Shown: positions 9,119 to 59,482 of the stretch, in pieces
Numbering within the stretch: position 1 is the stretch's first letter
Layout: each line of letters starts with the position of its first letter
DNA from: Crambe crambe
Taxonomy: Eukaryota; Porifera; Demospongiae; Poecilosclerida; Crambeidae
Assembly: GCA_963924555.1 (NCBI GenBank)
Contig: OZ004595.1
Span: 2,666,001 to 2,730,000, forward strand
Direction: 5' to 3'
DNA length: 64,000 nt
Program-made: the position numbers and the translations under genes
The notes under the pieces: model-generated
Seen by the model: only the letters and a program-made list of their open reading frames with translations
The model's database searches: none
Told to the model about the DNA's origin: nothing

Positions 9119-9215
9119 CTAATGACATCATACCCATGAGAATTGTATAAAAGGAGCTGATAGCCAATAGCATGCTGTATCTAATAGAGCAGCTGCTGTT
9201 TTAGTAGAGTGAAGC
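9119..9215 (+). promoter_or_regulatory. Core promoter of Eph/Ig gene 1
   Basis: A TATA box (TATAAAAG at 9146-9153) lies 70 bp before the ATG, with AATGACATCAT (CRE/AP-1-like) about 25 bp upstream of it. The block is conserved almost base for base upstream of the tandem paralogue (14006-14013), where flanking DNA differs more. That supports both promoter function and recent duplication. Confidence 0.65.
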
Positions 9216-10722
9216 ATGAATACTGTAACACAAAGTGCACTGATCTTCCTACTGGTGGAAGTTGTGTGTGTGATAGCTCTGCTTCCTCCTAATCCACAAT
9301 GTCAATATAACAACCGGGATGCTCCAAATGATTTCAATCGACGATGTCGGGCTGGCGACAATAGACTGAACCACATTTTCCCTGACAATTGGAAAGTTTT
9401 GGTGGACACTTACAACTACCAACAGCTCTTCAGACCAGGCAGCTCACGTTCAGTTTGGGAGTCAGAAGATTTTGATGGGGATGGAAATACGGTAATTATT
9501 CTTAATGACAAGCTACACTGCATTATTGTTATTCCCTTACAGTGGAACCAAGTTATTGGAGGAGTCTGCCGCTGGAGTCTTTACACGTGCTCTTATCCAG
9601 CACCACAGGACAACTGGCTCTTTTCTCAGCGTATTGGCTACCATGGAGCCAAGGAAGTATTTTTCGATGTAAATTATAGATTTGACAACTGCAGAGATGA
9701 TCCTGAATGCAGTGACGATTTTGTTACTCTGTATCGTTGGGACACTAATGCAAGGGCCAACAAAGCAATGCTAAAAGATAAAAGTAACTACAAACCTTTC
9801 TTTGGTAATGAGACGTCTTCGAAGCTGCAGCAACCTCCTCCTCCAGCTTCAATAGTGGAGGAGCTGCATAGCTGGATTCGACCACCTGAATGTGCCTTCT
9901 ATCTTGGTCTCAAAGACAGTGGTACGTGTGGTTCAGTGACAAGAATTATCATCTACTACACAGTATGCCATGGAAGGAAAGAAGGATTGGTAGTCTATCC
10001 TGAATTTGCAACTCCACCAAGAGATGGACCAGATGAAGTCTTTTATGCATGTTGTGTTGCAAATGCTCACAACATTACTAGTCTTGCAGTGAATGGTTTC
10101 AGCGAGAACAGCACTTGCAGTGATCAGGCTATAGGTGGTGCCAAATGTGAGTGTGATGCTGGCTACGAGATTTCTCGGGATCGGCAATCATGCATAGGTG
10201 AGCCATGCAACTTAAAGTCGAGTAGGGCCCATGCTAAGGGTTCACAAACCTGTTGTCTAAAAATTGCCTTTTCTACTTCTTGAATAACAATTTATTTTCA
10301 ATAATTATTAACCTTTTTTTGCTACCCCTCCAGCCTGTCGCAGAGGGTTCTATCGTGCAGAGGGATCGAGTAGCAAATGCCAGCGGTGTCCTCTGAACTC
10401 TGTCTCAAATAAAATAGCATCTCCCCAATGTGAATGCTTAAGCGGCTTCTTTAGAGCTCCAGGAGAAGGACCAAATATCCCATGCACAGGTATGCACAAT
10501 CTAGTTATCAGTAGCTTGCTGGTGAGTCACTATAAAGGCTGAATATTCTTTGATCATTGAATGAAATATCAGTGATCAAGGTTCAAACTTATTGTATTGG
10601 CTATAGACTAGAGTTGGCTCACTCTGACAGTAATGTTATCATTAATTAGTTGAGTACAAAGTAGCATAATTGAGTCATGTAGGGAGATAATTAGTTATTG
10701 ACTGTTTTATTTTACTTATCGC

Positions 10723-10763
<41 letters not shown>

Positions 10764-12958
10764 CCTGTGATGGAATAGAATTTGGTGGTCTGGTGGTCAG
10801 GTGCGAACTTAAGTGTAAAGGTTACATTCTGATCATTATACTTCATAAGTATTATTTCATAGTTCGTACTTTGATTTCGCAAAAAATTTTCTCTATTATT
10901 ATTCTAATCAGCAACAATAATATAATTTGATGGCATTGTTTTATTTTATATTGCAGAGCCACCAACTGCTCCCATAAATTTTAGAATCAGCGAGCAAACA
11001 GATTCAACTCTCACTCTCTCTTGGCTACGTCCATCAAAAACTGGACGACAAGATTATCACTACCGGCTTTGTTATTCCATTTTAACAACTACAATAGAAA
11101 AATATTGCTCCCCTGATATTATAAGTCCAACTTCACGTCGAATGTTTTACACTATCGAAGGCTTACAGTCAGATACCATGTACGATATACAGTTATCATC
11201 TCACAATGGGGTCAGTAATCAAGACTTGAAGAACAATGACCGTAGAACTGTTGCTACAAGAGGAGGCACAACTGAGGGAGGTCAGTCTTCCTATGATAAT
11301 TATGCACAATCATTGTGTTCTAATTATCTGAAAGTATAAAATTCCATAGCTCCAATTCATTCCAATACTCCAAATGAATATTCTCCCCTCAATTTTCTAT
11401 CTGTACTATTGTAGTTCCTGATCATCCAATCTTAAAGCGACTTTGCACAGTGGTGATTTGGAAGCATCCCCCCAATCCCAAAGGCAAGATTATGGGATGT
11501 GAACTGTGCTTTGGGAGAGCTGAAGGAGGCCCTGAGTGCTCTAACTACTCTGCTACTGATAACTTTCAGTTAACCAGAGACGATCAAAGGGAAAAGAATG
11601 TCAATGTTGAGGTATGCATACAAATGCCATAAATATGATCATGGAATTGATGTATGTATTGTACAAACTCTTCAATTCCTGACCCAAATTTCAGAGATAA
11701 TTTTTTTTTTTTACTCCCACTCTCTGCTGATGGAATTTGGTCAAAAATTGGTTATTGGCTACAATCATACCATAGTAACCATAGTAACTGTTGCTAGTTT
11801 GTGGGATATTATGAATTTTTATTGTCATTCCCCCAAGAGAGAATTTCCTGTAGTAAAGTGTGCAGTTCTAGCTAGAGAGAAAAAAAAAAGCTAGAGAAAC
11901 TCAGAGGAAGTTCAGCTGACTGGGGTATAGTGTGCATCACCCACTATTTGATCCGTCTGCTGATTTATTACATTCAATATTCATGATTTTGAAAAATATT
12001 GAAGATGAAAAGAATGGGTTTGATGCTAAACTAACGCAAACTATTATACTTTAATTTTTGCAAAAAAAATTGTTATGCAATTGGCTTTTGTTGCTCCCTT
12101 TCAGATACGATGCTGGAACTCGGCTGCAAGTAGTAACTCCACAGAGCTCTTACCAATTGGTATGCAATGACGTCAGCAGAGAGTATAGTTTTTGAAGTGC
12201 CATAATTATAGAAGAAAATTTTGTAGGGCAAAAATTGAAGTGTGAACCTCTCTATGTATTATTTTCACGACCACTAAATCCACAAAAAAATTCACTCCAC
12301 GAAATTTTTAATTTCCTGGTATAGATTTGAGCAGTTGTAGCTAAGCAAACAGTCAGGAGAAGTAACATAATAATTTGAGTATCCATCCTCATATACGATG
12401 TGTGTGTACTATTAGGTTGTGACAATTTTGTTGCACGCTGTCCACCTTCTCCAACTACTCATCGTCCAACTACCTCTCGAGCAACTACCTCCCCTCCAAC
12501 CACACCCCGTCCGGTGGCTACACGTCAGATAACTATCCCCCGTGCATCTACATCCCCTCCACCCACTAACCCTCCACCCACTACCCCTCCACCCACTAAC
12601 CCTCCATCTACAAACGCATGTCCCACTTACAACTCAGATTTTGTACTTAATGGAGTGGGTTACAGTAATGGTGATAATATCTCCATCAGTGCTATTGGAA
12701 GTGAAGAGTCAGCATTAATTTGCACAACTGAAAATGAAAACTGCTGCACTGGTCTTAATCGTGCAGGACAATTCCAGTACCCCGATGGGACAGAGGTGCC
12801 AATTAGAAGTAGAAGACGGGGATTCTACCGGAATAGGGGTTGCAAAATGATTCGTCTCCATCGTAGAGAAGGAGTGACAGGTCCCACTGGGGCTTATCGC
12901 TGTATGATTCCCGGAAATGATGGGACCATGGTTACTAAGACTATCAATGTTGTAGCAG
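9216..12958 (+). CDS. Secreted Eph-receptor-like ectodomain protein with one Ig-like domain (copy 1); 3' end unresolved
   Basis: About 735 residues visible. Exons: 9216-9491, 9543-10197, 10334-10489, 10957-11280, 11415-11611, 12105-12159, 12416-12958; phases 0,1,1,1,0,1 agree with both paralogues. Order: signal peptide (MNTVTQSALIFLLVEVVCVI), ephrin-binding domain (QDNWLFSQRIGYHGAKEVFF; FYLGLKDSGTCGSVTR), Cys-rich repeat (ACRRGFYRAEG ... CPLNS), two FN3 domains, a Thr/Pro-rich linker, and one Ig-like domain (SALICTTENENCC ... FYRNRGCK ... YRCMIPG). In Eph receptors this ectodomain binds ephrins, but no transmembrane segment or kinase is seen. The Ig exon ends in a good donor (GCAG|GTAAGT, phase 1) and no downstream exon is obvious. 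Without splicing there it would end after about 27 further residues at 13038. Role as a soluble recognition or decoy molecule is inference. Confidence 0.82.
9492..9542 (+). other. 51-nt intron without stop, in frame (copy 1)
   Basis: Bounded by ACG|GTAATT and TTACAG|TGG. It is a multiple of three and has no stop, so retention would insert VIILNDKLHCIIVIPLQ into the ephrin-binding domain. The minus-strand paralogue has a 377-nt intron at the same codon position, which shows this stretch is an intron. The tandem copy has the same 51-nt intron at 14352-14402. Confidence 0.75.
10725..10761. repeat. (GT)n microsatellite
   Basis: Pure GT run within intron 10490-10956 of Eph/Ig gene 1. Confidence 0.9.
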
Positions 12959-12988
12959 GTAAGTGGGGATGGGGTGGATATGGGTCCA

Positions 12989-13145
12989 GTAGGATGGGGT
13001 TCACTGATCAAGTAGGATGGGGTTCACTGATCGAGTAGGATGGGATTCACTGATTCAGTAGGATGGGGTTCACTGATTGAGTAGGATGGGGTTCACTGAT
13101 CGAGTAGGATGGGATTCACTGATTCAGTAGGATGGGGTTCACTGG
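12989..13145. repeat. 23-bp minisatellite after the last visible exon of Eph/Ig gene 1
   Basis: About 6.8 copies of a 23-bp unit of the form GTAGGATGGGGTTCACTGAT plus three bases (CAA, CGA, TCA or TGA). Variant units recur in an ordered pattern (CGA then TCA twice), so the array has grown by multi-unit steps. It starts 30 bp downstream of the donor at 12959. Confidence 0.92.
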
Positions 13146-13985
13146 ATTAGGTGTAGCTAGGTAACTAATATTGCTGGCATCTCCAGCAGCTGCCACTCCC
13201 CCCATCAAGTCATGGTTGAAGTACTATTAGGGGTCCCCTTCTCCCATTAGCATGCTGGATGATCTAACCCATTATTTAGCAATGTATCCAGCTATTTTAC
13301 AACCTTTTCTTATCAAACATCAGCTGTAATTCATAGTTATAATTTCATTGTGTGTGTGTTGTTGTTGTTTTTTTTTGCACTACTATTAGATTCATGATCC
13401 ATGGATACATTACATTGGACCATTATGATAATCATAACTACAATCTTAAAGAAGTAACGTCAATCATTAGTTAGTTGCAGCATTATAAAACAACTTTTAT
13501 AGCTAGTGGATTATCTATTATTATCTATTATAGTTCATATTGTAATTACCAGCTAAATATTATTAAAATAACAACCCTTCAATGCATAATACGCAATTAA
13601 TTTTGTGTCCAGAAAGTTTTATGAGAGAGAGAGAGAGAGAGAGAGAGTGTCTATTAAAGCTGGCTATGTTCTTTTTGACATTTGCTCTCTGCAACTCTAC
13701 AATAGTTGCATGCTGTATATCATAATCATAATACACTATCATAGCTAGGAAATTATATTAAGTAAGCTGTGACTACATACATCTATCACCCACACAGTAC
13801 ATAGTACTCAAAGATAAAAATGGGATAAGTGCAGTTTCTAAGCTAGTGGACCACTGATACAGGCACTCTGATAGTGCCATACTGGTATGATAATTACTAT
13901 GGCACAGCTGCATAATAATGATTTTGGGCAAGCCTCAATACCACGAAACCCTAATTATTGGTAATGATGTTAGCTAATGACATCA
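13146..13985. other. Intergenic spacer between the two tandem Eph/Ig genes
   Basis: AT-rich; holds a (GA)n run at about 13624-13647 but no coding exon that I can support. No phase-1 acceptor followed by a Thr/Pro-rich or Ig-like exon is visible, which leaves the 3' end of gene 1 open. Confidence 0.5.
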
Positions 13986-13989
13986 TGCA

Positions 13990-14075
13990 TACCCATGAGG
14001 ATTGGTATAAAAGGAACTGCATGATAGCCAAATGCTGTATCTAATAGAGCAGCTGCTGTTTTAGTAGAGTGAAGC
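13990..14075 (+). promoter_or_regulatory. Core promoter of Eph/Ig gene 2
   Basis: TATA box TATAAAAG at 14006-14013 and a shared 5' UTR block (GAGCAGCTGCTGTTTTAGTA) immediately before the ATG, duplicated from the promoter at 9146. A TGACATCAT motif lies just upstream at about 13977-13985. Confidence 0.65.
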
Positions 14076-17000
14076 ATGAATACTGTAACACAAAGTGCAC
14101 TGATCTTCCTACTGGTGGAAGTTGTGTGTGTGATAGCTCTGCTTCCTCCTAATCCACGATGTCAATATAACAACCTGGATGCTCCAAATGATTTCAATTC
14201 ACGATGTCGGGCTGGCAACAATAGACTGAACCACATTTTCCCTGACAATTGGAAAGTTTTGGTAGACACTTACAACTACCAACAGCTCTTCAGACCAGGC
14301 AGTTCACGTTCAGTTTGGGAGTCAGAAGATTTTGATGGGGATGGAAATATGGTAATTATTCTTAATGACAAGTTACACTGCATTATTGTTATTCCCTTAC
14401 AGTGGAACCAAGTTATTGGAGGAGTCTGCCGCTGGAGTCTTTACACGTGCTCTTATCCAGCATCACAGGACAACTGGCTCTTTTCTCAGCGTATTGGCTA
14501 CCATGCAGCCAAGGAAGTGTTTTTCAATGTAACCTACAGATTTGACAATTGCAGAGATGATCCTGCATGCAGTGATGATTTTGTTACTCTGTATCGTTGG
14601 GACACTAATGCAAGGGCCAACAAAGCAATGCTAAATGACAAAAGTAACTACAAACCTTTCTTTGGTGATGAGATGTCTTCGAAGCTGCAGCAACCTCCTC
14701 CTCCAGCTTCAATAGTGCACGAACTGCATAGCTGGATTCGACCACCTGAATGTGCCTTCTATCTTGGTCTCAAAGACAGTGGTACGTGTGGTTCAGTGAC
14801 AAGAATTATCATCTATTACACAGTATGCCATGGAAGGCAAGAAGGATTGGTAGTCTATCCTGAATTTGCAACTCCGCCAAGAGATGGACCAGATGAAGTC
14901 TTTTATGCATGTTGTGTTGCAAATGCTCACAACATTACTAGTCTTGCAGTGAATGGTTTCAGCGAGAACAGCACTTGCAGTGATCAGGCTATAGGTGGTG
15001 CCAAGTGTGAGTGTGATGCTGGCTACGAGATTTCACAAGATCGACATTCGTGCATTGGTAAGCTGTGCAACTATTACATATTAATAGGAGGGCCTATGGA
15101 ATATTTAGTTCACTCTTTTCTAGCTCTAAGTGTTTTAATGCACCTGCACGAGCATCATTTTAGTGCACCATGTATTAAAACACATGGAGCTAGAAAAGAG
15201 TGATCTAAACATTTTAGTGCTGATCACATGACTTGTGACCAATCAAATTCCAGTTAGTCCTTACAGAACCCTAGCCCTAGCCCTAGCCTAGGCCTAGTAC
15301 CTACGTAGCAAGCTCTGACACACTTTGGTTCAGTAAGAATGCTGATACATGTATTCAAAAAAAAATTGATGAGGTAAATTCCTGAGGTTTTCCTGTTTGA
15401 AACCCAATGTAACAAACAAGTGAATGCTAAAGTCTTTAAAAGAAGACATTAGATGCTAATTTTCCGTGAGCACTATAGGGACAGAGGCTGGAAGGATCTT
15501 CCACTAGGCTCCTATGTACGTACCTCAGCACAGTTCCTCAAGTGTGCACTAAACATTAAGTGCACATAAAAGTGTGCTTTATGCACACTTTTCAGAGGAT
15601 CTGATTGGTCACAAGTCAGCACTAAGTAAAGATTTAGAAACCCGAGCTGCTGGAAAATTAAAAAACAACAACACACTTTTCTGGTCGCAAAATTGCCTTC
15701 ATTAATTCAACTCTTCATTTTCTCTGTTCTTTCTTACACTGGAAATGAGCATGAGTATGAGGAAATGAGCTAGTATTTCCAAAAGCTTTTGGAAGACGTA
15801 TTGACTATACTGTATCATGAACTGATTTCCTCCTTTGATTTAAATATATGTAGCAGGTTTTTATTTTCATTATTCTTGCCCCACTCCAGCCTGCCGCAGA
15901 GGGTTCTATCGTGCAGAGGGACCGAGTAGCACATGTCAACGGTGTCCTCTGAACTCTGTCTCAAATAAAATAGCTTCCCCCCGATGTGAATGCTTAAACG
16001 GCTTCTTTAGAGCTCCAGGAGAAGGACCAGATTTCCCATGCACAGGTACATTATATAATGTGAGCTGTAGCTAATACGTACGTGTAAATCAGTGTTATGA
16101 ATTGTTAGTAGATTAACTCAAACTCATGAATCAAGTATCAGCACGAGAGATGACTCAGATGAATTACATTGAGATTCGATTTATGATTGCTAAAACTGAG
16201 TTCCAATGTTGTGCTTAATTACTCTCTGAAGTCTTTTCTTAATTAAGGTCATTTATCACTGCAATCTCATGGTATACTAAAAATTGGTCTGCCTTGGAGT
16301 AATGTGTAGATGCATTGGCACAGCTCATAAACCTGTGTGTGGCAGTGTTCACGCCCTACTTACAAGGTGTTGCATTACTTGCAACTATTCCAATCAATTT
16401 ATTGTATTAGCTATAGACTAGAGTTGGCTCACACTTATAATAATGTTATCATAAATGTTATGATTAATTGATTACAAATAGCATAATTGGGTTATTTCAG
16501 GTGGGAGAATTAATCTACTTAATTTATTGACTGTTAATTAATTTTATTTTACCTTAATAGGTGATGGACTGAGCTATTTTTTGTGCAAAATTTTGTGATG
16601 CATGGAAAAATGAGGGAATGGTTCCAAACAGGGATAGCATAAAAACTTCTTTTTTTTCGGTGGTGGTGCAAAGTTTTTTTGGAGAATTTATAACAGCTAG
16701 TTCATACTTTTAATTTTGCAAAATCAAAACCACTAAATGTTCTCCCATCAAATTTGGTTGTAGTCAGCACCAATGATTTTATTCTTTTACGTTTCATAGA
16801 GCCACCGACTGCTCCCATTAATTGTGAAATCAGTGAGAAGACCGATTCCACCCTCACTCTCTCATGGCAATGTCCATCAATAATTGGACGAACAGATTAT
16901 TTCTACCGGCTTTGTTATTCCGAATTGGCAATGATAGAAGAAGAGTTTTGTTCCCCTGATATAAGGCCAACTTCATGTCGAATGGATCACACTATAGAAC

Positions 17001-20000
17001 GTTTAAAAGCAGATACCACTTACAATATTAAACTCTCATCTCATAATGGGGTCAGTGATCAGGACTTGGAGAACAATGACCGTAGAACTGTTGTTAAAAG
17101 AGGAAGAACAACTGAGGGAGGTGAGTCTTACGTATTTTCACAATCATCTTCTGGCTCAGAAAAGTCACCTCTAAGAGTTAACATTATTACTGTGTGTGAT
17201 CTCCTAAAAAATAATCAATAATTTAAGTATAAGTAAGCTGTAGCAAATAATTAATTTAAATGAAAAAAACAACTAATCCATAAAACATGACTTTTTAAAT
17301 TTTCTATTACTATAGTAAATCAGGGTTTTTTTGTGGGCATGTTCAACGTAATTATTGTACTAAATAGATTAAAAGCTAATCACAGGTAAGTCTAAACATG
17401 GATTGATGTCTAATGAAAATTTCCCAATTTATACAGTTCCTGATCTTCCAATTTTGAAGAGACTATGTACAGTGGTGATTTGGAAGCCTTCTCCTAATCC
17501 TGCTGGCAAGATTGTTGGATATGAACTACGCTTTGAAGGCATGAAGGGAGAGATCATGAACTTCTCTGCTGATGATAACTTTCATTTGACCAGCGACAAT
17601 CAGAGGCTAAGGAATGTTGATGTTCAGGTAAGCACATGCAACCCTGGTAACTGTTGCTCGGGCAACAAATGCTTTATCATCATGGGATTTTATTATCACT
17701 TTATGTCAGTCGGTTCTCAAGGGAGAGTTTATCTAATTGTGTAAACGTGTACTATTCCCAAGACACTTTATACTACATAGCTATGGTTACAAACTACTGT
17801 TTGCACTATAGCAGAATATTACTCACAATAATGATCATTAATTTCGCTGGCTTGATCTAACAAGAAACAAGCATAATCAGAAGAGTAATGGTCCTCACCT
17901 AGCTAGCTAGAGAACTGGAGGCCTTTTAGTGTGCATTGCCCATGCTTCTCTGCAGAGTGAATTTGAATATTTCACTGCTTTGAGATAAAAATTTTGTGGC
18001 CTTAAGATTAAGAGTTTGATGCTACGTATATGAGTGCAAAAAATTTCTTCTAAATAAAAAGTGAAGTAGGGTAGCCATAAAATATAGCTGCACTATTACT
18101 ATTTCTATATCACTCCTAATTTCAATAAAACCACACCCAACTTAAATCCCTACTTCACTCCCCCTTCAGCAACAAGTGAGTCAAGAAAATCATAATGAAA
18201 AGAGTTTGATACTATGTCAATTAAAAGGCTGTCAAGTGGTGGTGACAGCTGGACTTTCTTCTGGCTCCATTGCTATGTCTAGGCCTTCTTACATATGTAT
18301 GCACTGTACATGTAGGAGATTCTTTGAGCATGTGAATTGAATCAATTTTGTGATTGAACTTTGACCCTGACATGCACATACATGTATGCATAGAGTAAGA
18401 TTGGTTAGTGGGCTCGCTTCGCTTGCCCAATCATATTCTTTTTTTCAGAGAATTTCGTCCATTTTGCCATGATTGCAAATGGTTTTGTTACTCCTTTTCA
18501 GATACGAACCAGGAACTCAGCTGCAGCTAGTAACTGGACAGAGCCCTTACCCATTGGTATGTTGTACATACATCAAACATCACAGCACCTAGATGCATAC
18601 AATTTTTTTTACTTTTCCAACTCTTGATTAAGACACTAGGACATCATTATTACCATAGCTAAAGTATTCCACTATAAAGTGGTCAAGTTGAGCTAGTACA
18701 ACAGTTTTAGCTAAGCAAACACTCGAGAGGTGAAAAGTAACTCTAGTTATTATGATTACTGAGTATCCATTCTCCTGTGTTGTTGTTGTTGTTGTTGTCG
18801 TCGTCATCGTTGTTGTCATCATCATCATCATCGTCACTTATTATTATTATTATTTTGTAGATTGCAACTTTAATCCACAATGCCCAACCTCACTACCCCC
18901 ACCTGTTGATTTAACCACTCCCCCTCTGACCACTACCCATCCTCCTCCAACTACTTCTCATCCAACTGCTTCTCATCCAACTACCTCCCCTCCAACTACA
19001 TCCCGTCCTGTGGCTACCCGCGGGACTCTTCCTCCTACAACTTCCAATGCCATGCCTCCACCCACTGCCCCTCCACCCTCTACCCCTCCATCCATTATCC
19101 CTCCGACCAATGAGTGTCCCACTTATGACACAGATTTTGTAGTTAATGGTGTGGGTTATAATGATGGCGATACTATCTCCATCGACACTATAGGAAATGA
19201 AGAATCAGCATTAATTTGCACAACTGAATACGAAAACTGTTGCACTAGTCCTAATCGTGCAGGACAATTCCAGTACCCCAATGGGACAATGGTGCCAACT
19301 AACAGTATGGGAGAGGGATTCTACCGGAATAGGGGCTGCAAATTTATACGTCTCCATCGTAGAGAAGGCGTCACAGGTCCCATTGGGCCTTATCACTGTA
19401 TGATTCCTGGAAATGATGGGACCATGGTTACTAAGACTATCAATGTCATTGCACCAACTCCACGTCCACCGGTTCGTTTAACCACTCCCCCTCCTACCAC
19501 TCCTCCTCCTACCACTACCCGTCCTCCTGCAACTACTTCTCATGCAACTACCTCCCCTCCTCCACCCACTACCCCTTCACCCACTACCCCTCTACCCACT
19601 ACCCCTCCACCCACTACCCCCCCACCCATAACCCCTCCACCCACTAACCCTCCACCCACTGCCCCTCCCACGAACATGTGCCCCACTTACAACTCAGATT
19701 TCATACTTAGTGGCGTGCGTTACAGTGATGGTGATACTATCTCCATCAATGATATTGGAAATGAAGAATCAGCATTAATTTGCACAACTGAAAATGAAAA
19801 CTGTTGCACTGGTCCTAATCGTGCAGGACAATTCCAGTACCCCAATGGGACAGAGGTGCCAGTTAGCCTTATGGGAGAGGGATTCTACCGGAATAGGGGT
19901 TGCAAGTTGATCCGTCTCCATCGTAGGGAAGGTGTGACAGGTCCCACTGGGGCTTATCGCTGTTTGATTCCTAGAAATGATGGGACCATGGTTACTAAGA

Positions 20001-20506
20001 CTATCAATGTCATTGCACCACTACCACCATCAACTTCACGCCCACCTGTTCGTTTAACCACTCCCCCTCCTACTACTCCTCCTCCTGCCACTACTTCTCG
20101 TGCAACTACCTCCCCTCCTCCACCCAGTACCCCTTCACCCACTACCCCTCCACCTACAAACGGATGTTCCACTTACAGTACAGATTTTGTAGTTAATGGT
20201 GTGGGTTATAATGATGGTGATACTATCTCCATCGACACTATAGGAAATGAAGAATCAGCATTAATTTGCACAACTGAAAATAAAAACTGCTGCACTGGTT
20301 CTAATCGTGCAGGAGAATTCCAGTACCCCAATGGGACAGTAGTACCAGTTAACGATATGAGATATGAATTCTACCGGAATAGGGGTTGCAAGTTGATCCG
20401 TCTCCATCGTAGAGCAGGCGTGACAGGTCCTACTGGGCCTTATCGCTGTATGATTCCTGGAAATGATGGGACCATGGTTACTAAGACTATCAATGTCATT
20501 GCATAA
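14076..20506 (+). CDS. Secreted Eph-receptor-like ectodomain protein with three Ig-like domains (copy 2)
   Basis: About 1,099 residues. Exons: 14076-14351, 14403-15057, 15890-16045, 16800-17120, 17437-17627, 18502-18556, 18861-20506 (stop TAA); phases match copy 1 and the total is divisible by three. Domains by residue: signal peptide 1-20, ephrin-binding about 30-290, Cys-rich 290-365, FN3 at about 365-472 and 472-540, then one large exon with three [Thr/Pro-rich linker + Ig-like] units, Ig domains at about 635-750, 825-938 and 986-1099. Each Ig unit has the CTTE(N/Y)(E/K)NCC, FYRNRGCK and Y(R/H)C motifs. N-glycosylation sites (NIT, NST) are present. The linkers (repeats of TTPPP) look mucin-like and are probably O-glycosylated. 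No transmembrane helix, GPI signal or kinase. The first two exons are almost identical to copy 1. Likely extracellular; ephrin binding is inferred from the family. Confidence 0.87.
14352..14402 (+). other. 51-nt intron without stop, in frame (copy 2)
   Basis: Same position, length and reading frame as the intron at 9492-9542, bounded by ATG|GTAATT and TTACAG|TGG. The intron differs from copy 1 by only about a single base. Confidence 0.75.
15100..15640. repeat. Composite MITE/dispersed repeat in Eph/Ig gene 2 intron
   Basis: The segment opens with an imperfect hairpin: TTCACTCTTTTCTAGCTC near 15108 pairs with GAGCTAGAAAAGAGTGATC near 15186. It continues with sequence that reappears in reverse orientation at about 62215-62475. 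It explains most of the 832-bp intron 15058-15889. No coding potential. Confidence 0.55.
18779..18858. repeat. Trinucleotide run upstream of the Ig exon
   Basis: Consecutive (TTG)n, (TCG/TCA)n and (TTA)n triplets end at the acceptor TTTTGTAG|AT (18859-18860). The open frame continues upstream through this run, but the paralogues place the exon start at 18861. Confidence 0.8.
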
Positions 20507-20545
20507 CTACCACCATCAACTCCACGCCCACCTGTTCTTTTAACA
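20507..20545 (+). other. Relict Thr/Pro linker after the stop of Eph/Ig gene 2
   Basis: Right after the stop, the DNA still resembles the linker found between Ig units 2 and 3 (CTACCACCATCAACT...CGCCCACCTGTT). This suggests the repeat array once continued, and that a change creating TAA after IA ended the protein early. Confidence 0.65.
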
Positions 20546-21109
20546 TAACATGATGACACCATAGCAACTGCACAATTATTAAAGACCATACTTATTAAAA
20601 TATTATAAGCATTAATCTTTTTTTCCTTCACACTGTTAGCTGTACGATCCATGGATGGATGCAGTTGACAGCTTTACTTTGGACATCTAATAACCATGTA
20701 TGTGTAGTAAAGTAACATCGTGCAATCATTAGTTTTACTCTTTTGTAATTATACTCTTTATAATTATAACTAGTTTATTATAGCAATTATGTATGACCAA
20801 AATTGTATAATCATTGTTACAGTAATAATTGTGTTGATATCTGAAGAACAAAATAATTCTATGAAAAATAGCATTTGAAATAATCATGGTGAGAGAGTGA
20901 GTTTCTTAGCTAGTCAATATTGTATAGTGATGAATGGATGCAGCAAAGAACATCTCAGGAGAAAGCCATTATGGATGTCAAGCTGTGACTTGTGATCATA
21001 CTGCAAGGGAAAAATGATAATTATTATTACACTGTAAGCAACAACAACAACAACAACAACAACAACAAAACCTCAATGCATTAGTTATTGCAGGGATCTT
21101 CCAGAAATT
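20546..21109. other. Spacer between converging Eph/Ig genes
   Basis: AT-rich; contains a (CAA)n run at about 21040-21068. No coding exon is recognised on either strand. It must hold the 3' ends of the genes at 14076-20506 (+) and 21110-25188 (-). Confidence 0.5.
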
Positions 21110-24100
21110 TTAATTTGGGGGGAGAAAAAGATAAAACTTAGGATGTATTATGAATTGCACATAAGATTGTACGAAAATAAACAATTTACCTAAATCGATT
21201 TGAATAGATGTCTCCACACCACAGGAATCGAACAATTTACAGCGATAGGTTCCAGTTCCATTGTTATTGGCACCAGACTGCCGATGATGCAAACGAATGA
21301 CCTGTTCTCCCCTGTTGCGATAAAATGCCCCACCATCTTTATTTCTACCCACTGAATTCCCATTGGGATCAGAGAACTCTCCGATTCGCTGGGTACGGCA
21401 GCAATTCTGGAATTCTGTCATGCAGAGCAAGGCATTGGCATCACCTTCTCCAACATCACCGATACTTATTGTGCTTTGGTTGTTGTATCTTCTTCCATTC
21501 ATCATAAAGTAGGGGAACCGACCTGCATGGAAACAAGAAAGTGTAATTAATTAGCCATTGTAATTATTCTTGAAACTATTTCGATGTCTTAAACTTCTGT
21601 TCTATAATGGAGTAAATAATATACAGCTAGCTACTTGATTTCTAGCCACTACTAGAACTGACATGCAGGAGGAGTTGCTGTGGTGGCAATGATACCAGCC
21701 GTCTGTGTTGGGGAGGTTGTAGTGGAAATGGTTCTAGGTGGTGGGGTAGGAGCTGAAGAAGTTGAAGAAGCTGCAGTTGAAGGAGCAATTGAAGGTGTCG
21801 ATGATGTAGGAAGAATTGGGCAGTTTCTTTGGCCATTGCAATCTGTAGGATGCAGTCATCATGAATCCATTGATGTACACAACTAATTAGTTACAAGGAA
21901 CTAGCAAGAGCTGCATATGTACATATGCAGCCACACAACTATGTAATCTCACGTACTTATTGGCAAGAAATCAGTCCAGCGACTTGCTGCAAAGGAGTTT
22001 AGTGCCCTAATCTGTAATAGAAAAAAAAATAATTGTGTAACTAGCTAGTGTGGCTCAGTTGTAGAGTCGTAATTAATTACAGCATTATTATTAATTATAG
22101 CTAATTATTATGAATTGTAATAGACACTGAAGAGTAATTAGCTACAGGTGTTAATACAGTGAGGTGTTATAAATGCATTGTTATATAGAGATATGCAGGG
22201 CATTGTGGGCCTGATAGATGTGGTTAGATGTTTGCTGTGCATGGTTAGATGGCTTGATATGGTGCGTGTATTAATGATGCTGCTACATATTTTCACATAC
22301 AAATAGCCACATACCTGGACACCAATATTTTGCTGCATTTCTGCTTCAGCTGTGATGTAAAAGTTCTCGTCCCTACCAAACTTTTCAATTCTCCCTGGAG
22401 ACTGGCCGATACGGAGCTCATAACCAGTGATCTCACCAGCTGGCTCAACTGGTGGCCTCCATATCACCACAGTGCACAGTCTGTTCAGGATGGGTGGGCT
22501 AGGAACTGCAAGCAATAGCATAACATAGTTTATCAACTAGTCATAATTATTCCACATAAAAAAAACATACCAAGGATAGTCCTTCCCACTTGCCCCTCCC
22601 TCCCCCCTCCCCCCTCCCCCCCTCGACTAGCTGATCAACTGATAGGGGTCCCCTGATTCTTGTGATTACTACAAGAGTAAGATGCTACACACCTCCTTCT
22701 GTGGTTGACCCAGTGACTGACATCACCCTACGGTCATCGTTGGTGGGGTCCTGGTCACTGACTCCATTAAAAGTTGCAACAGTTACTTCATAACGAGTGA
22801 CAGGACGCAAGTCGCGGATGGTGTATGTTACAGTCTCTCTATCATTTCGGTACAAGTTGTTGACAGTGATTTTGGTTCCGGTTTTAAGATTGGAAAGATT
22901 GATTTTGTAGTAGAAGTCACTTCGTCCTGTGATTACTGGTCGTATCCAGGAAACAGTAATGGATGTGCTCACTTGGACTGAAATACGAAGGTTTCTGACT
23001 GGACCTGGTGGCACTGCAAAACATGAAGGATATCGTTCTATATAATGCACACAAGACAGCTGCAAATCACTATTCCTATAAAATATTGATTCCCCTATTT
23101 AGCTATTCAGAAACTAACCACTGCAAAATATTGACTTAGCTATCAACAGAGGACCTTAAATTTGTGGTTTAGTATGTTTGCCCAATTATAACCACTGGAG
23201 TGGCAGGAAGTTAAAGACCACAATAGTGTGAATTTTAATTATGGAGGAAGTACGTAGAACATGCAGTGGAGTGGCAGGAAATTAAATAGACCACAGTAAC
23301 CATGGTAACTAGCATAAGCCAGGTAACCTTAGCAACTGGCTAGCTCTATGAAATTGGATTTATCAAACTTGATTTGGTTGCTAAGGATAAATTGATGTTG
23401 ATAGCTATGTACAATGCTACAGTCGATTTAGCACTCCATCTGTTCCCTAATGAGAAGCACAATGTGCTTATCATCTCAATAGTCTTTGAATTTAAACATC
23501 ATTTTGATGTACATAAAAAATTCATTTACCTGTACAGCCCTTATCAGGACCTTCTCTCTGGTCCCTGAAGAATCCAGGGAGGCAGTTGCACTGAGAAGCA
23601 CCCACAGCATCCATCACAGTATTGGCAGGACATCTCTGACAGGTGCTGAGTCCTTCAGCTCTGTAGAATCCCCTGCTGCATGCTGAAAATTAAGTGGGAT
23701 GAGTTATTAGCTAGTATAACCCTGCTTAGAAACTTTTTAGAGCAACTGTTGGTAATCCACTTGAGCTCATTAACTTGACTCTTTAAGAGGCCATAGCTAA
23801 TGAGTTCAAGTGAGTGTATTATTTCAAGTGAGTGTATTATTGTCACCAGATTTAGGAGGATGTAATGCTAGCAATCTATAGCTAATGATTATAATTAACG
23901 TATGACATACCTATACATGATCGTCTATCTGTTGAAATTTGATAACCAGCATTGCATTCACACCTGGCCCCTCCTGTAATCACATCTCTGCAAGAGCTGT
24001 TTCTGCTGAATGCTGTCACCTGAAGGCTGGTTACATTGTGGGCATTATCAACACAGCGAGCATCAAAAATCTCATCCGGTCCATTTTGTGGTGGAGTAGC

Positions 24101-25188
24101 AAATTCAGGATAGACCACCAATTCCGTTTGTCTTTCCTTGCATACTGTGTAGTAGAGAATGATTCTTGACACTGAACCACATGTACCACTGTCTCTGATG
24201 CCAAGGTAGAAACCATTATTTTTGGGGCGAATCATATCACGTGTCTCCCTCACTATTGAAGTTGGAGGAGGAGGTTGCTGTAGCCTTGAAGACGTCTCAT
24301 CACCGAAGAAAGGTTTGTAGTTGTTTTTGTCGGTCTGCAGTGTCTCACTGACTCTGCTATTAGCATCGTAGCGATAGAGAGTAACAAAGTCATTCTCACA
24401 GTCATCGATGTCTCTGCAGTCATCGAATCTGTAGGTGACATTGAAAAATACTTCCTTGGCACCTAGGTAGCTGATGTATTGGGAGAAGAGCCAGTTATTT
24501 TGTGTTCCTGCAAAATCAGTGCATGTGTAGAGACTCCAACTGCAAACTCCTCCGATAACTTGGTTCCACTGTAATCGTACCATACAGAGTGTGTACATAT
24601 GTAAATTTGAAAGTATCATTGATAACTGACATAACTATAGCCACAGAGCTAACAGAGTATATTAATGATGAGATGGGAAAGGGGATGCTGTGAGGAGTGA
24701 ATTTATCAATATATAAAGGTCTAGGTACTCCAGATACTCTAGAATACTGTCAGATACTCAAATCTGCAGTTAATCCACAATACTAAAAATGTATTTTTTT
24801 TTTTGTGGTCATGTTCAGCTAGCAACAAAAATTAATATTACCCTGTACAAGCTAATTAAAGCAGTAAGAATGAAAATAAAATTTAAATTAATACAGAAAC
24901 AGCTGCATATAGCTATGCCATTTAGCTAGCTATTGTTGTGCATACCTTAAGTCCATCATTATCGAAATCCCGTACCTCCCAAACTGAACGAGAACTGCTT
25001 GGTCTAAAGAGTTGTTGATAGTCGTAAGTGTCCATCAAAATTTTCCAGTTATTGGGGAAAATGTGCCTCGCTGCGTTATTCCCCTCACGACATCGTTGAT
25101 TGAAATCTCCTGGTGCCTGTGCAAAGGAGAGCCTGACCACTCCGAGTAAAAGCAGCAGATCTTTTAATATCTGCATTGTAGCTCCCAT
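21110..25188 (-). CDS. Secreted Eph-receptor-like ectodomain protein with one Ig-like domain (diverged copy 3)
   Basis: Minus-strand gene with exons (plus coordinates) 25188-24946, 24568-23911, 23682-23530, 23013-22693, 22505-22315, 22011-21957, 21842-21663 and 21522-21190. Positions and phases match the plus-strand paralogues, except that the linker and Ig domain are on separate exons. About 711 residues: signal peptide (MQILKDLLLLLGVVRLSFA), ephrin-binding domain (QNNWLFSQYISYLGAKEVFF; FYLGIRDSGTCGSVSR), Cys-rich repeat, two FN3 domains, a short Ser/Thr/Pro linker, one Ig-like domain (ALLCMTEFQNCC ... FYRNRG ... TYRCKLFD). The Ig exon can end at a donor at 21190 or read through to a stop at 21110-21112, adding a 26-residue, partly hydrophobic tail. 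No kinase is seen. It is clearly older than the tandem pair. Confidence 0.85.
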
Positions 25189-25285
25189 TATGAGTTTTAT
25201 GTTAAGAATTCTCCTGCAGATGAATGAGTTACGTATAGTTTTCTGCTCCTTTTCCTTTGCATGTGAAGTTCCAAACTGTGCATGT

Positions 25286-25295
25286 CCTTTTTATA
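25286..25295 (-). promoter_or_regulatory. TATA box of Eph/Ig gene 3
   Basis: TATAAAAAGG on the minus strand, about 100 bp upstream of the ATG at 25188, at a distance similar to the TATA boxes of the other two family members. Confidence 0.6.
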
Positions 25296-27390: not shown

Positions 27391-27617
27391 GAGTTTGATG
27401 GAGTATTGCAAGCCTAGCACTTTGAAGAAACTGCTCACCAGCAGGAAAATTAAAGTGTCTTATTTACGTACTTAGTACAAACCATACTGATGTCATGACA
27501 ACCTATTCATTATAGTGAGGAATTCAAAACAGCCTAAATAAACCACAGCATTCTCAGTTCATTATTGCCCACCACACCCGTTATTTTAGGATCAGGGCCG
27601 CCAGCGCGAAGTCAGAA
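26497..27617. repeat. Upstream half of a segmental duplication (TRIM 5' region)
   Basis: This 1.1-kb stretch is homologous, with indels, to about 58270-59482. Shared marks include GGGGTGGGAGGAAGTGGTAGA tandem units cut short here to about four, a (CT)n run (27338-27386 here, much shorter at 59174), and the block before the ATG. It carries no ORF and probably contains the TRIM promoter and 5' UTR. Confidence 0.8.
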
Positions 27618-29717
27618 ATGGCTGAAGCTCTCAAGAAACTTGATGAACAGCTCAATTGTGCCATCTGTCTTGATATTTTTACGGAACCCAAGCTTCTTCA
27701 GTGCTTCCATGTCTTCTGTAGGCAGTGCCTTGTGAAATTAGTCGTGCGAGACGAGCAGGGACAACTCTCCCTAGATTGTCCAACATGTCGTCAGGCCACA
27801 CCTATCCCAGCCAATGGAGTGGCAGGCCTACAGTCAGCTTTTCATATCAACCACCTCTTGGAAATCAGAGATTCAGTAAAGGAAGCAAAAACTCCAGCAA
27901 TAAGTCAGGAAGTGGTAAAAAGTGACAAGACACACCCCATTCCAAAGGTTACTCCTAACTGCTTTGAGCATGCTGACAAAGAGCGAGAACTTTACTGTGA
28001 AACTTGTGAAGACTTAATCTGTTTGAAATGTGCTATCAAAGGAGGCAAGCATCAAGACCACAATTATCAACCATTGAATGATGCTTTTGAAAAGTATAAA
28101 AGTGAGATGACATCATCACTGGAACCAATGGAGAAGAAGTTAGCCACCATCAATGAGGCACTAAGGCAGTTAGATAAAACTCGTGAAGAAATATCTAACC
28201 AGCAATCAGTCATCAAAGCAAGCATCAATGACACCATTGGACAACTCCATGAGGTACTCGAAGGAAGGAGGACTGAGTTGATTGGTGAACTAGACCGAAT
28301 CACTCAGAGAAAACTGAAAGGCCTGGCAATCCAGAGGGACCAGATGGAGACTACTCTGGCCCAGCTGAGAAGCTCTCTTGCATTTATCGAGGAGAGTATG
28401 AAGACAGGCATTCAGGAAGAGATGCTGATGATGAAGTCAAATGCTGTGGTAAAACAGATAAAAGAACTAAGTGCAGGATTTCAACCAGGTGTATTGAAGC
28501 CTGACACAGAAGCAGACATCATATATACAGCATCAGCCAATACCACTGTAGCATGTCAGAACTATGGCCAGATCTACTCACCTAGTTTTCCAGATCCATC
28601 TAAATGTTATGTCAACTTAAAAGATGCTGTAGTTGGGAAGAAATCTACTGCTATCATGTTCACTCTCAACTATGAAGGGGAACCATGTACAAAATCACTC
28701 GAATCATTGCAGTGTGAGCTTGAGTCTGAGATAACAGGTACCATTGTGAGAGGCACTTTTGAGAAGAAAGAACTTAACCAGTATGAAATCAGCTATCAGC
28801 CCACTTCAAAGGGGAGACACCAACTATGCATCACAGTGGATGAACAACACATCAGAGGAAGTCCATTTGCTGTACCAGTGAAATTGCCAGTCAAGGAGCT
28901 CAGAACTCCAATCCAAACTATCGATGGTTTGAATAGACCTTGGGGGGTGGCAGTCAGCCAGAGAGGAGAAGTGGTAGTAAGTGAGAACTACGTAGATCGT
29001 GTATCTATCTTTAGTCCAAGAGGTGAAAAGCTTCAATCGTTTGGCACAAGTGGCCGCTCAGATCAGGGACAGTTTAAAGCCCCTCGTGGAGTTGCATTTG
29101 ACAGTGAGGGTAATATTTTAGTGGCAGATAATCATCGCATTCAGAAGTTCACTATGAGAGGTCGCTTTCTTGCCACAGTGGGTACTGAAGGAAATGGACC
29201 TCTACAGTTCAAGTATCCCTATGACATTACATTCAATGTTAGTAATAACAAAATCTATGTGTCAGATGAAAATCACCGTATTCAAATTCTGAACTCTGAC
29301 CTCACTTTCTTCAGCACCTTTGGAAGGCAAGGCATAGGGAAAGGGCAGTTCAATTTTCCACGGGCTATATCTTGTGACAGTACTGGGAGAGTCTACGTGG
29401 CAGATAGTTGTAATCATCGCATCCAAGTCTTCACAGCTGAGGGGAAATTTTTGAAGATGTTAGGGCAACATGATCAAGGTAAAGGGGAATTGCACTCTCC
29501 TGCTAATATTGCTATCGACACTGATGATATTTTGTATGTCAGCGATCACAATAATGATAGTATCTCAGTGTTTACCTCTGAAGGTTATTTCATGTCATCT
29601 TTTGGCCGAAAAGGGAAGGAACTAGGAATGTTCAGTAGACCTTCTGGACTAGCAGTGGATAACAGTGGAGTGCTGTATGTCTGTGATTTTGAAAATAAAC
29701 GTATTCAAGTGTTTTAG
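27618..29717 (+). CDS. TRIM-NHL E3 ubiquitin ligase, single exon
   Basis: 699 residues, intronless. Order: RING finger (about 15-62; CAICLDIFTEPKLLQCFHVF then CPTC), B-box zinc finger (about 113-158; CFEHADKERELYCETCEDLI, C and H ligands present), coiled coil (about 160-285), filamin-type Ig domain (about 300-430), then six NHL repeats (about 435-699; units such as PRGVAFDSEGNILVADNHRI). This is the architecture of TRIM2/3/32/71-type ligases, in which the NHL propeller binds protein or RNA. It does not single out one vertebrate orthologue; TRIM-NHL genes are known to be expanded in sponges and cnidarians. The ATG sits in a favourable context (GAAATGG), directly followed by the RING. A decayed partial copy lies at 59483. 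Confidence 0.93.
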   Translation: MAEALKKLDEQLNCAICLDIFTEPKLLQCFHVFCRQCLVKLVVRDEQGQLSLDCPTCRQATPIPANGVAGLQSAFHINHLLEIRDSVKEAKTPAISQEVVKSDKTHPIPKVTPNCFEHADKERELYCETCEDLICLKCAIKGGKHQDHNYQPLNDAFEKYKSEMTSSLEPMEKKLATINEALRQLDKTREEISNQQSVIKASINDTIGQLHEVLEGRRTELIGELDRITQRKLKGLAIQRDQMETTLAQLRSSLAFIEESMKTGIQEEMLMMKSNAVVKQIKELSAGFQPGVLKPDTEADIIYTASANTTVACQNYGQIYSPSFPDPSKCYVNLKDAVVGKKSTAIMFTLNYEGEPCTKSLESLQCELESEITGTIVRGTFEKKELNQYEISYQPTSKGRHQLCITVDEQHIRGSPFAVPVKLPVKELRTPIQTIDGLNRPWGVAVSQRGEVVVSENYVDRVSIFSPRGEKLQSFGTSGRSDQGQFKAPRGVAFDSEGNILVADNHRIQKFTMRGRFLATVGTEGNGPLQFKYPYDITFNVSNNKIYVSDENHRIQILNSDLTFFSTFGRQGIGKGQFNFPRAISCDSTGRVYVADSCNHRIQVFTAEGKFLKMLGQHDQGKGELHSPANIAIDTDDILYVSDHNNDSISVFTSEGYFMSSFGRKGKELGMFSRPSGLAVDNSGVLYVCDFENKRIQVF

Positions 29718-33782: not shown

Positions 33783-36700
33783 ATGTCGGGTACCTTTAGT
33801 AGCCCCATAGTTGTGGATGAAGCGGCTTCTCCAGTAAAAATCCTCTATGGAGAGCAGTACAGGTTAGTTGGTAAAAAGCTTGCTACTAGTAAAATTAGGT
33901 ACCAATGTTATGGTTATCTAACTAATCATAGATATGGCTAGACTATCTTACCAGACCCATGCATCAGCCAGATATGTCCAATATAATGCTTTTTTATATT
34001 TAGAAGAATAGTGAAAAATTTATCATCAGAAGAGGAAGACTTGGACTTTAATTCACCCTCTGAGGAGTCTGTATTCGAAGGTACTTGTTTTAGTTAAATT
34101 CCTAATTAGAACACACCAATAATTATTTTAAAGAGGGAGGGGGGCTAGGCTAGGGACCCAATATTTGATTCTAGGATGCTTTGCTTGAGTTATGGAATTG
34201 ATGGTTATCGCAGTTGTTGGCATACTAATACAAAGTAATGAATCTTTGAGTGTGCATAAGTCACGACTATTTGCTCCAAACTTGATAATCATTATAGAGC
34301 AAACTCCTAGAGTACTGTATAACTTCTTTTTGGAATTGCAATGATCTTATTGTGTCACAGATGATGATGATTCCAATATTGTTGAATGTAGAAGCGATAA
34401 AAGGTGAGGCTCTAGTCGTCTGAGTCAATGCTGAGGCTCCATACTGTAGTTGTCCATAAGGAATGAGAAATAGGTAGTGGCTTACAAGGACCTAAGAAAC
34501 ATGTCCTATACAATCCATGCAGTTGTGTAAACCATCAAAACACGTAGCATTTTTTCTTTGTGATATAGAACTGCAAATGGTGTTCCAATTTATGAAAGTC
34601 CACCTTTAAAGTATTCGGCTCACCGGATAATGCAGATACTTTTGGATCCTAATATCAATGAGGAAAGAATTGCCCAACAGAGGCCCCTAGAAATACAATG
34701 TAATTCGACATTTGTAGTGGATCTCAGGAATTTAAAGCACCCAGATGATGTAAAAAAAGATATGTATGGTAGATGGCAGCATCATGGTTCCCATACTGAT
34801 GTCTTTAAGTGTTCTTTCAATCAGGACAACAAAGTTTGTGTGGAAAAGGTGGCTCAAGGAGCCAGTGGGGAAGATGTTTTTTATTTGAGGCGATTGCATT
34901 CTACCCATCCTTGCAACAAATATTTCCGAAGGATAGTGGCATTGATCTCAGGTGAATTTTTTATTCTAATTGTATAGGGTATAGCACGTGCCTTGAGTAC
35001 CTACTGATTGCCCTCTGCTTGTAATTGGGGGGGGGGGGGGGGGGGGGGGCATTGGCTTAGACTATTTGTTTTTCTGACGTGCATGCATATAGTCTAAATG
35101 TATCAAATGCTTGTACTATATAGAAATGTGATACGGAACTTTACAACTTACAGATACATCTAATCAGCCTCATCATCTGTGCCTTGTTGTGTATTATCTA
35201 CCCGAGAATTTCAAGCCATCCATCTTTCCACATGGAAATAGCAAAGATAGGGATAAACCATTTTTCCCAACATTACCAAGTACAATGGCAACTTTGAAAG
35301 ATCAATGTGCTTGTGGAAGTGGCCCCAAAGATGCAGTTGCCACTGTTTCAGCTGTAGTAGGTGGAGTCGTTTCTGCTATTGATGCTTGTGAATTACCAAG
35401 GAACGAACAACAGGTTTCTTATTTGAAGCAGCGTCAAAAGAAGATTTCCTTTCCATCTGCATCAGCAAATGATGAGTTATCTGTAGTAATGCACAAGGCA
35501 TTCCTAGAAGATAATTGTTTCATCAGGGAAGTTAGAACACTTCACGAACCTGCCATCGTTGTTGCTTTGGATCGCCAGCTAAATGATATGGTAAGATTCT
35601 GTACTACCAAGGAAAACTTTGGAGTGTTAACAGTTGATCCCACTTTTTCATTGGGTGATTTTGATGTAACAATCACAACATATCGCCACCTTCTTCTGCA
35701 GTGCAATCGTACCAAGAACCATCCTTCTTTTATTGGTCCTGTTATGGTGCATCATAAAAAGACTTTTTCTACATATTTATTCTTCAGTTCAACTTTAGTT
35801 GGACTGCGTCCATCATTATCAACACTACAATCGTTTGGTACAGATGGTGAAAGTGCATTATTTCAAGCATTCCACCACTCGTTTCCATCAGCCATCCACC
35901 TGTTATGTTTTAATCATATGCAACGAAATCTGAAGGACAAACTTCATGAAATTGGTATTGCTGAAAATATTCGAGAAATGATTATTCATGACATTTTTGG
36001 GAAGCGAATCGGAAGCCATCAGTATGAAGGACTGGTTGATGCAGTTAATGACAAAGAATATGAGAGTGGACTAGACTCTTTGGGAAAGAAATGGAAAAGA
36101 TTTGATAGCTGTGAGAAAGGTCCAATACAGTCGTTCATTGCCTGGTTCCACAAGTACAAAAGTGAAGAAAAAAAAATGGTTTGCTACGTTCCAACCGTCA
36201 AAAAGCTGGACTTGGTAACCCTCCTGTAATATTTACTACGAATGCAAGTGAAAGCATGAATGCACTTTTAAAGAAAAAGGTTGATTACAGAAAGAATGAA
36301 TTGCCTGTGTTTATTGATGAGCTTAAAGCTGCCATCGAAGAGCAAGAGAGAGAATTAGAAAGGGCTGTGATAAAAAGGGGGAAATACCAGCTGTGCCCAG
36401 CATACAAGCATGATCTACAAAAGGATGAACATGAGTGGTTTATAAAAATGACCGTTAATCAGCGAAAATCTCACCTCAAGAAAGTAGCTGCATATTCATT
36501 GAACAAAAAACCTGGATGTAGACGCCTTTTGTTTGATAACCTACTTCAAATGACCTTTGTCATGATGTACCTTCATCTTCATCTATGTTTCCACCTTCAG
36601 TAGCCACTTCCTCATCGACATTGTCAATGGCATCCTCTTCCTGTTCTGCGTTATTGCCATCAGCAGCAGCTTCCTCTTTTGCATTGTCACCTTCAGCAGC

Positions 36701-58269: not shown

Positions 58270-59482
58270 CTCCTACATGTACGTAGTGTGGAAGAAAAAA
58301 TCTCTCCTTTTAGTTATTGTCTATTGACTCTGAGCAACTTTTCTCTCTCTATACATTCAATGCACAGCATCAGGGCTAGCACCAACTAGCTATTTAAAGA
58401 CTTAATCTAAAGGTCACCTTCGTTTGAAGGCATTGAATTCAGCTAGCCTGCTGCTGCATGGCTTGCAGAAAACTGCAAGGAGAGAAGCATAAGTGACAGT
58501 TGAGGGTAAAATCAAAGTGTGTGATTTCTACCATCACACAGGTGGGATCAAAGATGATCACGGAAATTGGGGTGGGGGGAAGTGGTAGAAAGTGACAGTA
58601 GAGAGAGTATATAGGCAGGGAGATTGGGGTGGGAGGAAGTGGTAGAAAGTCTATTAGTCTGATAATAGTGGTGGGAGGAAGTGATAGAAAGTCTGTTAGT
58701 CTGATAATAGGGGTGGGAGGAAGTGGTAGAAAGTCTGATCTTAGTAGAGGAAGAGATGCTAAATGACAGAGCTAATCATACGCACTCATGAATTCAATTA
58801 CATACCAAAAATTTTTGTAATTTTGCAAACAGTTTTCTTGAAAGGGTGCAAAAAATAACAATAAAAATCACTCAGAATGCAATGCTAGCACTTGATAATC
58901 ATCAAGAGCACCCATGTCATGGCCATGTGCAGGCATGGCAGCCTATTATTATGCTGCTATTCCAGTGAAACCCTATCATTATTATGCCAGCATATTAGCC
59001 CCATGCCTATTCACATTCAACCAATCATATAGCTAGTTATTAGTCTGGAATGCAATAATAATATGTAATTTCTATCATCACACGTCGATAGCTAGCTAGC
59101 TATCGATTTGATTGCTGGATAGAAAATTAGCTAATGTTGAAGGGACATTTTTAAAACTCTCTTGAGCAATGGGATCTCTCTCTCTCTCAAGTGAGTTTTA
59201 GATGCACTGATAGGAGCATTGCAAGCCTAGCACTTTGAAGAAACTGCTCATCAGCAAGAAAAAAAAGTTTAATTAAAGTGTCTTACATTAACTTTCATAG
59301 CTAGTTTAGCTATACGTACTTAGCTAGTACAAACTACAAAGTCATACTGATGCCATGACAACCTATTCATTAGTGAGGAATTCAAAACAGCTTAAATAAA
59401 TTACAGCATTCATATAAACTCAGTTCATTATTGCCCACAACACCCGTTATTTTAGGATCGGGGCCCTGCAGTGTACAGTGAA
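58270..59482. repeat. Downstream copy of the TRIM 5' segmental duplication
   Basis: Homologous to about 26497-27617, in the same order and orientation, with several indels. The GGGGTGGGAGGAAGTGGTAGA-type units are expanded here (about 58565-58745) and the (CT)n run is contracted (59174-59187). Confidence 0.8.

Follow-up and report, generated by a model that had tools for sequence, protein, structure and literature searches.

Eph-type ectodomain genes of the sponge Crambe crambe with mucin-like linkers and Ig-like domains: candidate extracellular recognition proteins

Eph receptors are a textbook case of cell-contact-dependent signalling. In the sponge Crambe crambe, a stretch of 64,000 nucleotides (C18:2666001-2730000, hereafter the window) carries three genes, A, B and C, whose products are most likely Eph-ectodomain proteins serving in extracellular recognition or bridging and not Eph receptor kinases. 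The genes span approximately positions 9216-25188 of the window, with A and B in tandem on the plus strand and C on the minus strand converging upon B. We give about an even chance to the reading that the cluster encodes extracellular recognition proteins in which the Eph ligand-binding ectodomain has been kept and the signalling part is gone.

The original prediction from this DNA had recognised the Eph domain order in all three genes, and Pfam scores together with homology among A, B and C bear this out. Each gene encodes an ephrin ligand-binding domain (LBD), an Ephrin_rec-like Cys-rich domain (CRD) and two fibronectin type III (FN3) domains. Against cut-offs of 27 bits for Ephrin_lbd (PF01404), 23.1 for Ephrin_rec_like (PF07699) and 25 for FN3, the LBD (31.9 bits in A, 30.8 in B, 58.8 in C) and the first FN3 domain (38.6, 32.0 and 46.8) are above threshold throughout. 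The Cys-rich exon scores 27.4 bits in A; that of B reaches 21.5 when scored alone and 29.8 within the spliced protein, and that of C was identified via its homology to A (60% identity, 1.4e-18). FN3-2 falls below the Pfam cut-off (no match in A, 12.0 bits in B, 13.4 in C) but nonetheless aligns among the three genes, with order, exon plan and second exon conserved. Structure prediction of the ephrin-binding domain, which had been proposed as a check, returned an Eph-like fold.

Behind the FN3 domains, all three genes continue into Thr/Pro linkers and immunoglobulin (Ig)-like domains, as homology and linker composition confirm for this part of the prediction as well. One Ig-like domain is found in A, three in B and one in C, and the three linkers of B are mucin-like, with Thr, Pro and Ser making up 71, 84 and 83% of their residues. 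No Ig family of Pfam recognised the domain, and a search of the PDB with its profile gave nothing convincing by sequence (best E 0.0035, to titin). It is predicted to take an Ig fold and has the cysteine pair and YxC motif: C37, G93, Y95 and C97 are invariant across 15 aligned copies from the genome, and in a 64-row alignment C37, G93 and C97 remain invariant with Y95 present in at least 90% of rows. The genome holds at least 150 copies of this domain, counting 150 scored out of 265 candidates, as locations only. Big arrays of the same type lie on contig C12 at 0.09-1.07 and 2.5-3.4 Mb.

In B, the stop recognised in the original prediction is an in-frame TAA at 20504-20506 that directly follows the last Ig domain, without a splice donor, a hydrophobic tail or a tail resembling a glycosylphosphatidylinositol signal. 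A hidden donor at this stop was considered and ruled out, no GT adjoining it. By its genomic sequence, B stops after its Ig array; a comparable end lacking helix and kinase is predicted for C and, with less confidence, for A. The C model has a phase-1 donor after the Ig domain and an acceptor before 21000 that would give Val-stop, and a weaker acceptor in A would give Asp-Ser-stop. The transmembrane helix of Eph receptors is accordingly missing from B by its own stop and from A and C by their predicted ends. Hydrophobic runs at about 13320-13345 (A) and 21072-21091 (C) were set aside as low-complexity sequence of (GTT)n type. Two relatives on contig C11, L016 and L017, would end alike by an eye reading, with the last Ig domain followed by a phase-1 donor, an acceptor about 50 bases on and an immediate stop; they count once as evidence on the gene end, because they are 96-97% identical there. 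The 3' gene parts of these two (C11:5.80-5.82 Mb) and the sequence behind them lie in blocks of that identity. Six kinase-exon queries gave a best E of 1.4 in the window, and as a control, four of these queries find their counterparts between two kinase-bearing Eph genes on C18 (4e-7 to 8e-5). The same kind of search over the whole genome matched very many kinases and did not single out Eph genes.

Without internal stop, the spliced models read 1,099 amino acids for B and, under the predicted 3' exons, 712 for C and 737 for A. Their features are as follows, the signal peptides being assigned by eye alone.

9216-9491, plus strand: A exon 1, signal-peptide-like N-terminus and LBD start (splice model)
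9543-10197, plus strand: A exon 2, bulk of LBD and EGF/sushi-like part of the Cys-rich region (PF01404 31.9 bits, splice model)
10334-10489, plus strand: A Cys-rich (Ephrin_rec_like) exon (PF07699 27.4 bits)
10957-11280, plus strand: A FN3-1 (PF00041 38.6 bits)
11415-11611, plus strand: A FN3-2, part 1 (homology to C exon)
12105-12159, plus strand: A FN3-2, part 2 (homology, splice model)
12416-12958, plus strand: A Thr/Pro linker and Ig-like domain (Ig 12613-12957), then phase-1 donor (homology, splice model; the acceptor scores weakly)
13390-13397, plus strand: A possible 3' exon, Asp-Ser-stop (weak prediction, chosen by eye)
14076-14351, plus strand: B exon 1, signal-peptide-like N-terminus and LBD start (splice model)
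14403-15057, plus strand: B exon 2, LBD and EGF/sushi-like part (PF01404 30.8 bits; model pLDDT 88.0)
15890-16045, plus strand: B Cys-rich exon (PF07699 29.8 bits on spliced protein)
16800-17120, plus strand: B FN3-1 (PF00041)
17437-17627, plus strand: B FN3-2, part 1 (homology)
18502-18556, plus strand: B FN3-2, part 2 (homology, splice model)
18861-20506, plus strand: B last exon, Ig-like domains at 19109-19453, 19673-20017 and 20159-20503 with three Thr/Pro linkers, TAA 20504-20506
24946-25188, minus strand: C exon 1, signal-peptide-like N-terminus and LBD start (splice model)
23911-24568, minus strand: C exon 2, LBD and EGF/sushi-like part (PF01404 58.8 bits; PDB EphB2 2.4e-10; acceptor picked by homology to A and B)
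23530-23682, minus strand: C Cys-rich exon (homology, splice model)
22693-23013, minus strand: C FN3-1 (PF00041 46.8 bits)
22315-22505, minus strand: C FN3-2, part 1 (homology, splice model)
21957-22011, minus strand: C FN3-2, part 2 (homology, hand-corrected model)
21663-21842, minus strand: C Ser/Thr/Pro linker exon (hand-corrected model)
21190-21522, minus strand: C Ig-like domain exon, then phase-1 donor (homology, hand-corrected model)
20996-21000, minus strand: C predicted 3' exon, Val then stop (acceptor TTTTCCCTTGCAG, chosen by eye)

Intron phases run 0-1-1-1-0-1 in A and B, and the first five are identical in C. The automatic model of C misread the linker exon, which left one internal stop, and ranked a rival LBD acceptor first (8.2 vs 8.0); the corrected model was built by hand from sequence and homology. 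An intron of 51 bp in A and B and 377 bp in C interrupts the LBD. Retention of the in-frame segment of A and B as coding sequence was rejected in view of its 51-bp length, its GT..AG ends and the C intron at the equivalent place; stretches of the fold model with pLDDT below 50 also fall in or at the edge of this segment.

The genome searched (119 contigs, 143 Mb) has PF01404 matches at 31 places, 30 of them above cut-off; C18 accounts for 25, the three window genes included, and C11 for the remaining 6. Gene-level analysis covers 17 of these loci, the 14 left out all lying on C18. None of the six C11 loci matched any kinase query: L013, L016 and L017 carry three or four Ig domains each, L011 and L015 each show a membrane-helix exon and a short tail, and in L009 neither an Ig domain nor a membrane-helix exon was seen. 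Kinase exons occur at two of the eight examined C18 loci outside the window, L023 and L030. The remaining six showed none, five of them with about 10 kb or more of downstream sequence covered and L029 with a gene that leaves the covered DNA, so C18 loci too may lack kinases. One of these C18 genes (L019:1702-5639, C18:3.61 Mb) reads by eye as LBD, CRD, FN3 and membrane helix, no kinase, and a short tail with a proline-rich, SH3-ligand-like end. On one strand, an additional kinase match (C18:4484532) follows the LBD at 4492131 at a distance of about 7 kb downstream. The two kinase-bearing genes (L023:1747-5149 at C18:4.08 Mb; L030, minus strand, at 4.53 Mb) have in common a 3.4 kb stretch from LBD to membrane helix, 96.4% identical. 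Beyond the helix, L023 continues with a juxtamembrane region of Eph type and a kinase exon most similar to EphB1; the kinase exon of L030 most resembles Mer/ROS/MET, and the best 60 of its 294 matches include no Eph. Judged from these sequences, the pair looks like a recent ectodomain swap.

A midpoint-rooted tree of 75 LBD rows has a deep split with 100/99 support and a long branch. On one side stand the window, C11, C18:3.61 and 56 database rows; on the other stand six C18 4.x rows, C18:3.67 and human EphA4 and EphB2, the join of C18_3.673 with the human rows being flagged as a doubtful long-branch one.

In the recognition reading, the proteins would be secreted into the extracellular matrix, where the LBD may capture a cell-surface or matrix protein, either ephrin-like or another cupredoxin-type ligand. 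The putatively O-glycosylated stalk and Ig domains would engage further proteins with Ig domains, and the molecule would thereby bridge or block contacts instead of relaying a kinase signal, and membrane-anchored kinase-less relatives of the same LBD branch might act likewise at the cell surface. The family probably originated through the attachment of a phase 1-1 Ig module after FN3-2, the point from which Eph genes with a kinase run on to the membrane helix, and tandem duplication probably followed.

Several points weigh against this reading. The 'latch' residue Arg103 salt-bridges ephrins in EphA2 and EphB2 (PMC10647059), and the latch column, located two before Cys105 of PMC6485061, holds Asp in A, B and C. 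Across the 75 rows, nine are gapped there and only 4 of the other 66 have Arg (two human, P0150 and P0162); nor is it present in any of the eight C18 rows from beyond the window, five of which have Glu, including the kinase-bearing L023 and L030. Some disruptive substitutions, a few in number, are described at salt-bridge positions of sponges and ctenophores (PMC6485061). All splice sites, as well as the ends of A and C, are predictions from genomic sequence with some by-eye choices, and non-repeat hydrophobic runs lie downstream of the Ig domains at 13651 (A), 20774 (after B) and 20832 (C), which makes an alternative membrane exon possible for A and C. Downstream of its Ig domains, L013 shows what may be a membrane-helix exon, separate and of unsure gene membership, so the Ig-bearing members need not all be secreted. 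The kinase-query control is partial, since K3 and K4 gave no cross-match at E <= 1e-3, and kinase-bearing relatives are under-represented in the tree because its database rows were gathered with a window LBD as query. Finally, O-glycosylation and Ig partners are suggested by composition and fold alone.

A bolder and less probable reading is that the Eph ectodomain has turned into a free cassette in this lineage. These genes would belong to a deep Eph-LBD branch free of kinase signalling, which would work in cell recognition as secreted Ig/mucin proteins and short-tailed membrane proteins with non-ephrin ligands of their own, accompanied by nearly intact exchange on C18 of another Eph ectodomain and helix between an Eph and a Mer/MET-like kinase.

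It is unlikely that the secreted proteins act as decoys, a role that the original prediction had raised as possible, soaking up ephrins and dampening the kinase-bearing Eph receptors of the same chromosome (C18:4.08-4.54 Mb). The Eph-like domain order, the stop of B with no anchor and the presence of L023 on the same contig would suit such a role, but the split in the tree separates the window LBDs from those of both kinase genes, and a shared ligand is not evident because of this deep divergence. The change of latch Arg to Asp also argues against a decoy, although L023 and L030 lack the Arg as well, and the Ig array would be left unexplained. A six-frame search of the genome with PF00812 found no ephrin, which does not show absence, the search being less sensitive here because it meets split exons; the same family detects one ephrin in the Spongilla proteome (PMC10176882). 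Of the broader proposal of soluble ephrin-binding or recognition molecules, the kinase-less Eph/mucin/Ig build and the apparent secretion of B through its own stop are supported, and C11 relatives share the plan. Ephrin binding is not supported: the fold is Eph-like, but the latch is Asp.

Rates of change bear on three further explanations. Ratios of nonsynonymous to synonymous substitution (dN/dS) were computed by NG86, with saturated dS in 5 of the 18 comparisons among A, B and C and dS of about 2 to 3 in three more. The main LBD exon gives 0.22 for A/B and 0.20 for both A/C and B/C; for the short exon at the start of the LBD, the A/B value is 0.66, from seven differences, and comparisons with C yield 0.22-0.23. 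For CRD, FN3 and Ig exons the values are 0.22-0.57 where computable, Ig repeats inside B included. The 5' parts of A and B (9126-10212 vs 13984-15072, 1.1 kb) match at 95% identity, a figure that takes in upstream sequence and the 51-bp intron, while further 3' the CRD is at 93%, most pieces at 77-89% and a few short ones at 91-94%. Since identity is higher in the 5' part, its recent conversion or partial duplication is suggested.

A secreted immune factor, in which a jelly-roll, galactose-binding-like LBD binds microbial or glycan ligands and the Ig arrays recruit cells, is quite improbable. The LBD does belong to a galactose-binding-like superfamily (PMC6485061). The family is expanded and tandemly duplicated, and its Ig domain comes from a very large family in the genome. 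Exposed immune-recognition surfaces often diversify, whereas the main LBD exon is slow-evolving. A polymorphic self/non-self recognition molecule, also raised originally, is very improbable: multi-copy clusters and the uneven divergence of A and B are in its favor, but dN/dS across whole domains is below 1 wherever computable, and at about 0.2 in the main LBD exon it gives no domain-wide sign of diversification. That the genes are ectodomain fragments or pseudogenes of kinase Eph genes with 3' exons missed or lost is hardly credible, for although the genes are known from splice models, with predicted 3' ends in A and C, open frames and matching phases recur in three genes under purifying selection, B and C converge to within only about 490 bases of each other, and C11 loci share the plan.

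Elsewhere in the window, a TRIM-NHL gene (RING, B-box, filamin, NHL) lies at 27519-29717, and its N-terminal part recurs, as judged by eye, in a shorter near-copy at 59456-59980. Two open frames at 35132-37748 resemble what we take to be a MULE-type transposase, and one open frame, 4,297 codons long, at 43781-56674 presumably encodes a sacsin-like protein.

Among known systems, the closest are the Eph receptor tyrosine kinases (EphA/EphB and the sponge Ephs of Krishnan et al. 2019, PMC6485061), with which the cluster shares the order LBD, Cys-rich, FN3, FN3, the cysteine columns of the LBD and the predicted fold. It differs from them in that no kinase was found with the window genes, B has no membrane helix, linkers and Ig domains follow FN3-2, and the latch is Asp. 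Nor was an intracellular part found that could carry a SAM domain or PDZ motif. NCAM-type Ig-superfamily proteins are another comparison; the window Ig domain differs in being unrecognised by the Ig families of Pfam, in having an extra vicinal cysteine pair and in its fusion to an Eph ectodomain. Soluble splice forms of vertebrate Eph receptors are also known. Kinase-lacking vertebrate splice forms (PMC6993872) likewise present an ectodomain without a kinase; unlike these products of kinase genes, the window has separate genes with an added Ig module.

Loss of the kinase is already known in kind, since kinase-less Eph architectures, with a suggested role in adhesion, are reported from sponges, cnidarians and ctenophores (PMC6485061, section 11). 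The window proteins resemble these in having an Eph LBD without a tyrosine kinase, while a secreted form with Ig and mucin parts is not described in the accessible text of that paper, the main text of which does not use the word 'immunoglobulin'. Nor was any paper evidently on Ig-bearing or secreted sponge Eph proteins found in the open-access literature, among the matches listed. In demosponges, LBDs are reported to fall into three clades and kinases into one (PMC6485061), and some of these LBDs may not sit on kinases. A large, constrained, kinase-less branch with secreted Ig members would mean that early animals already used the Eph ectodomain for recognition or adhesion independently of the kinase, and the cluster supplies concrete proteins for asking what the sponge Eph ectodomain binds.

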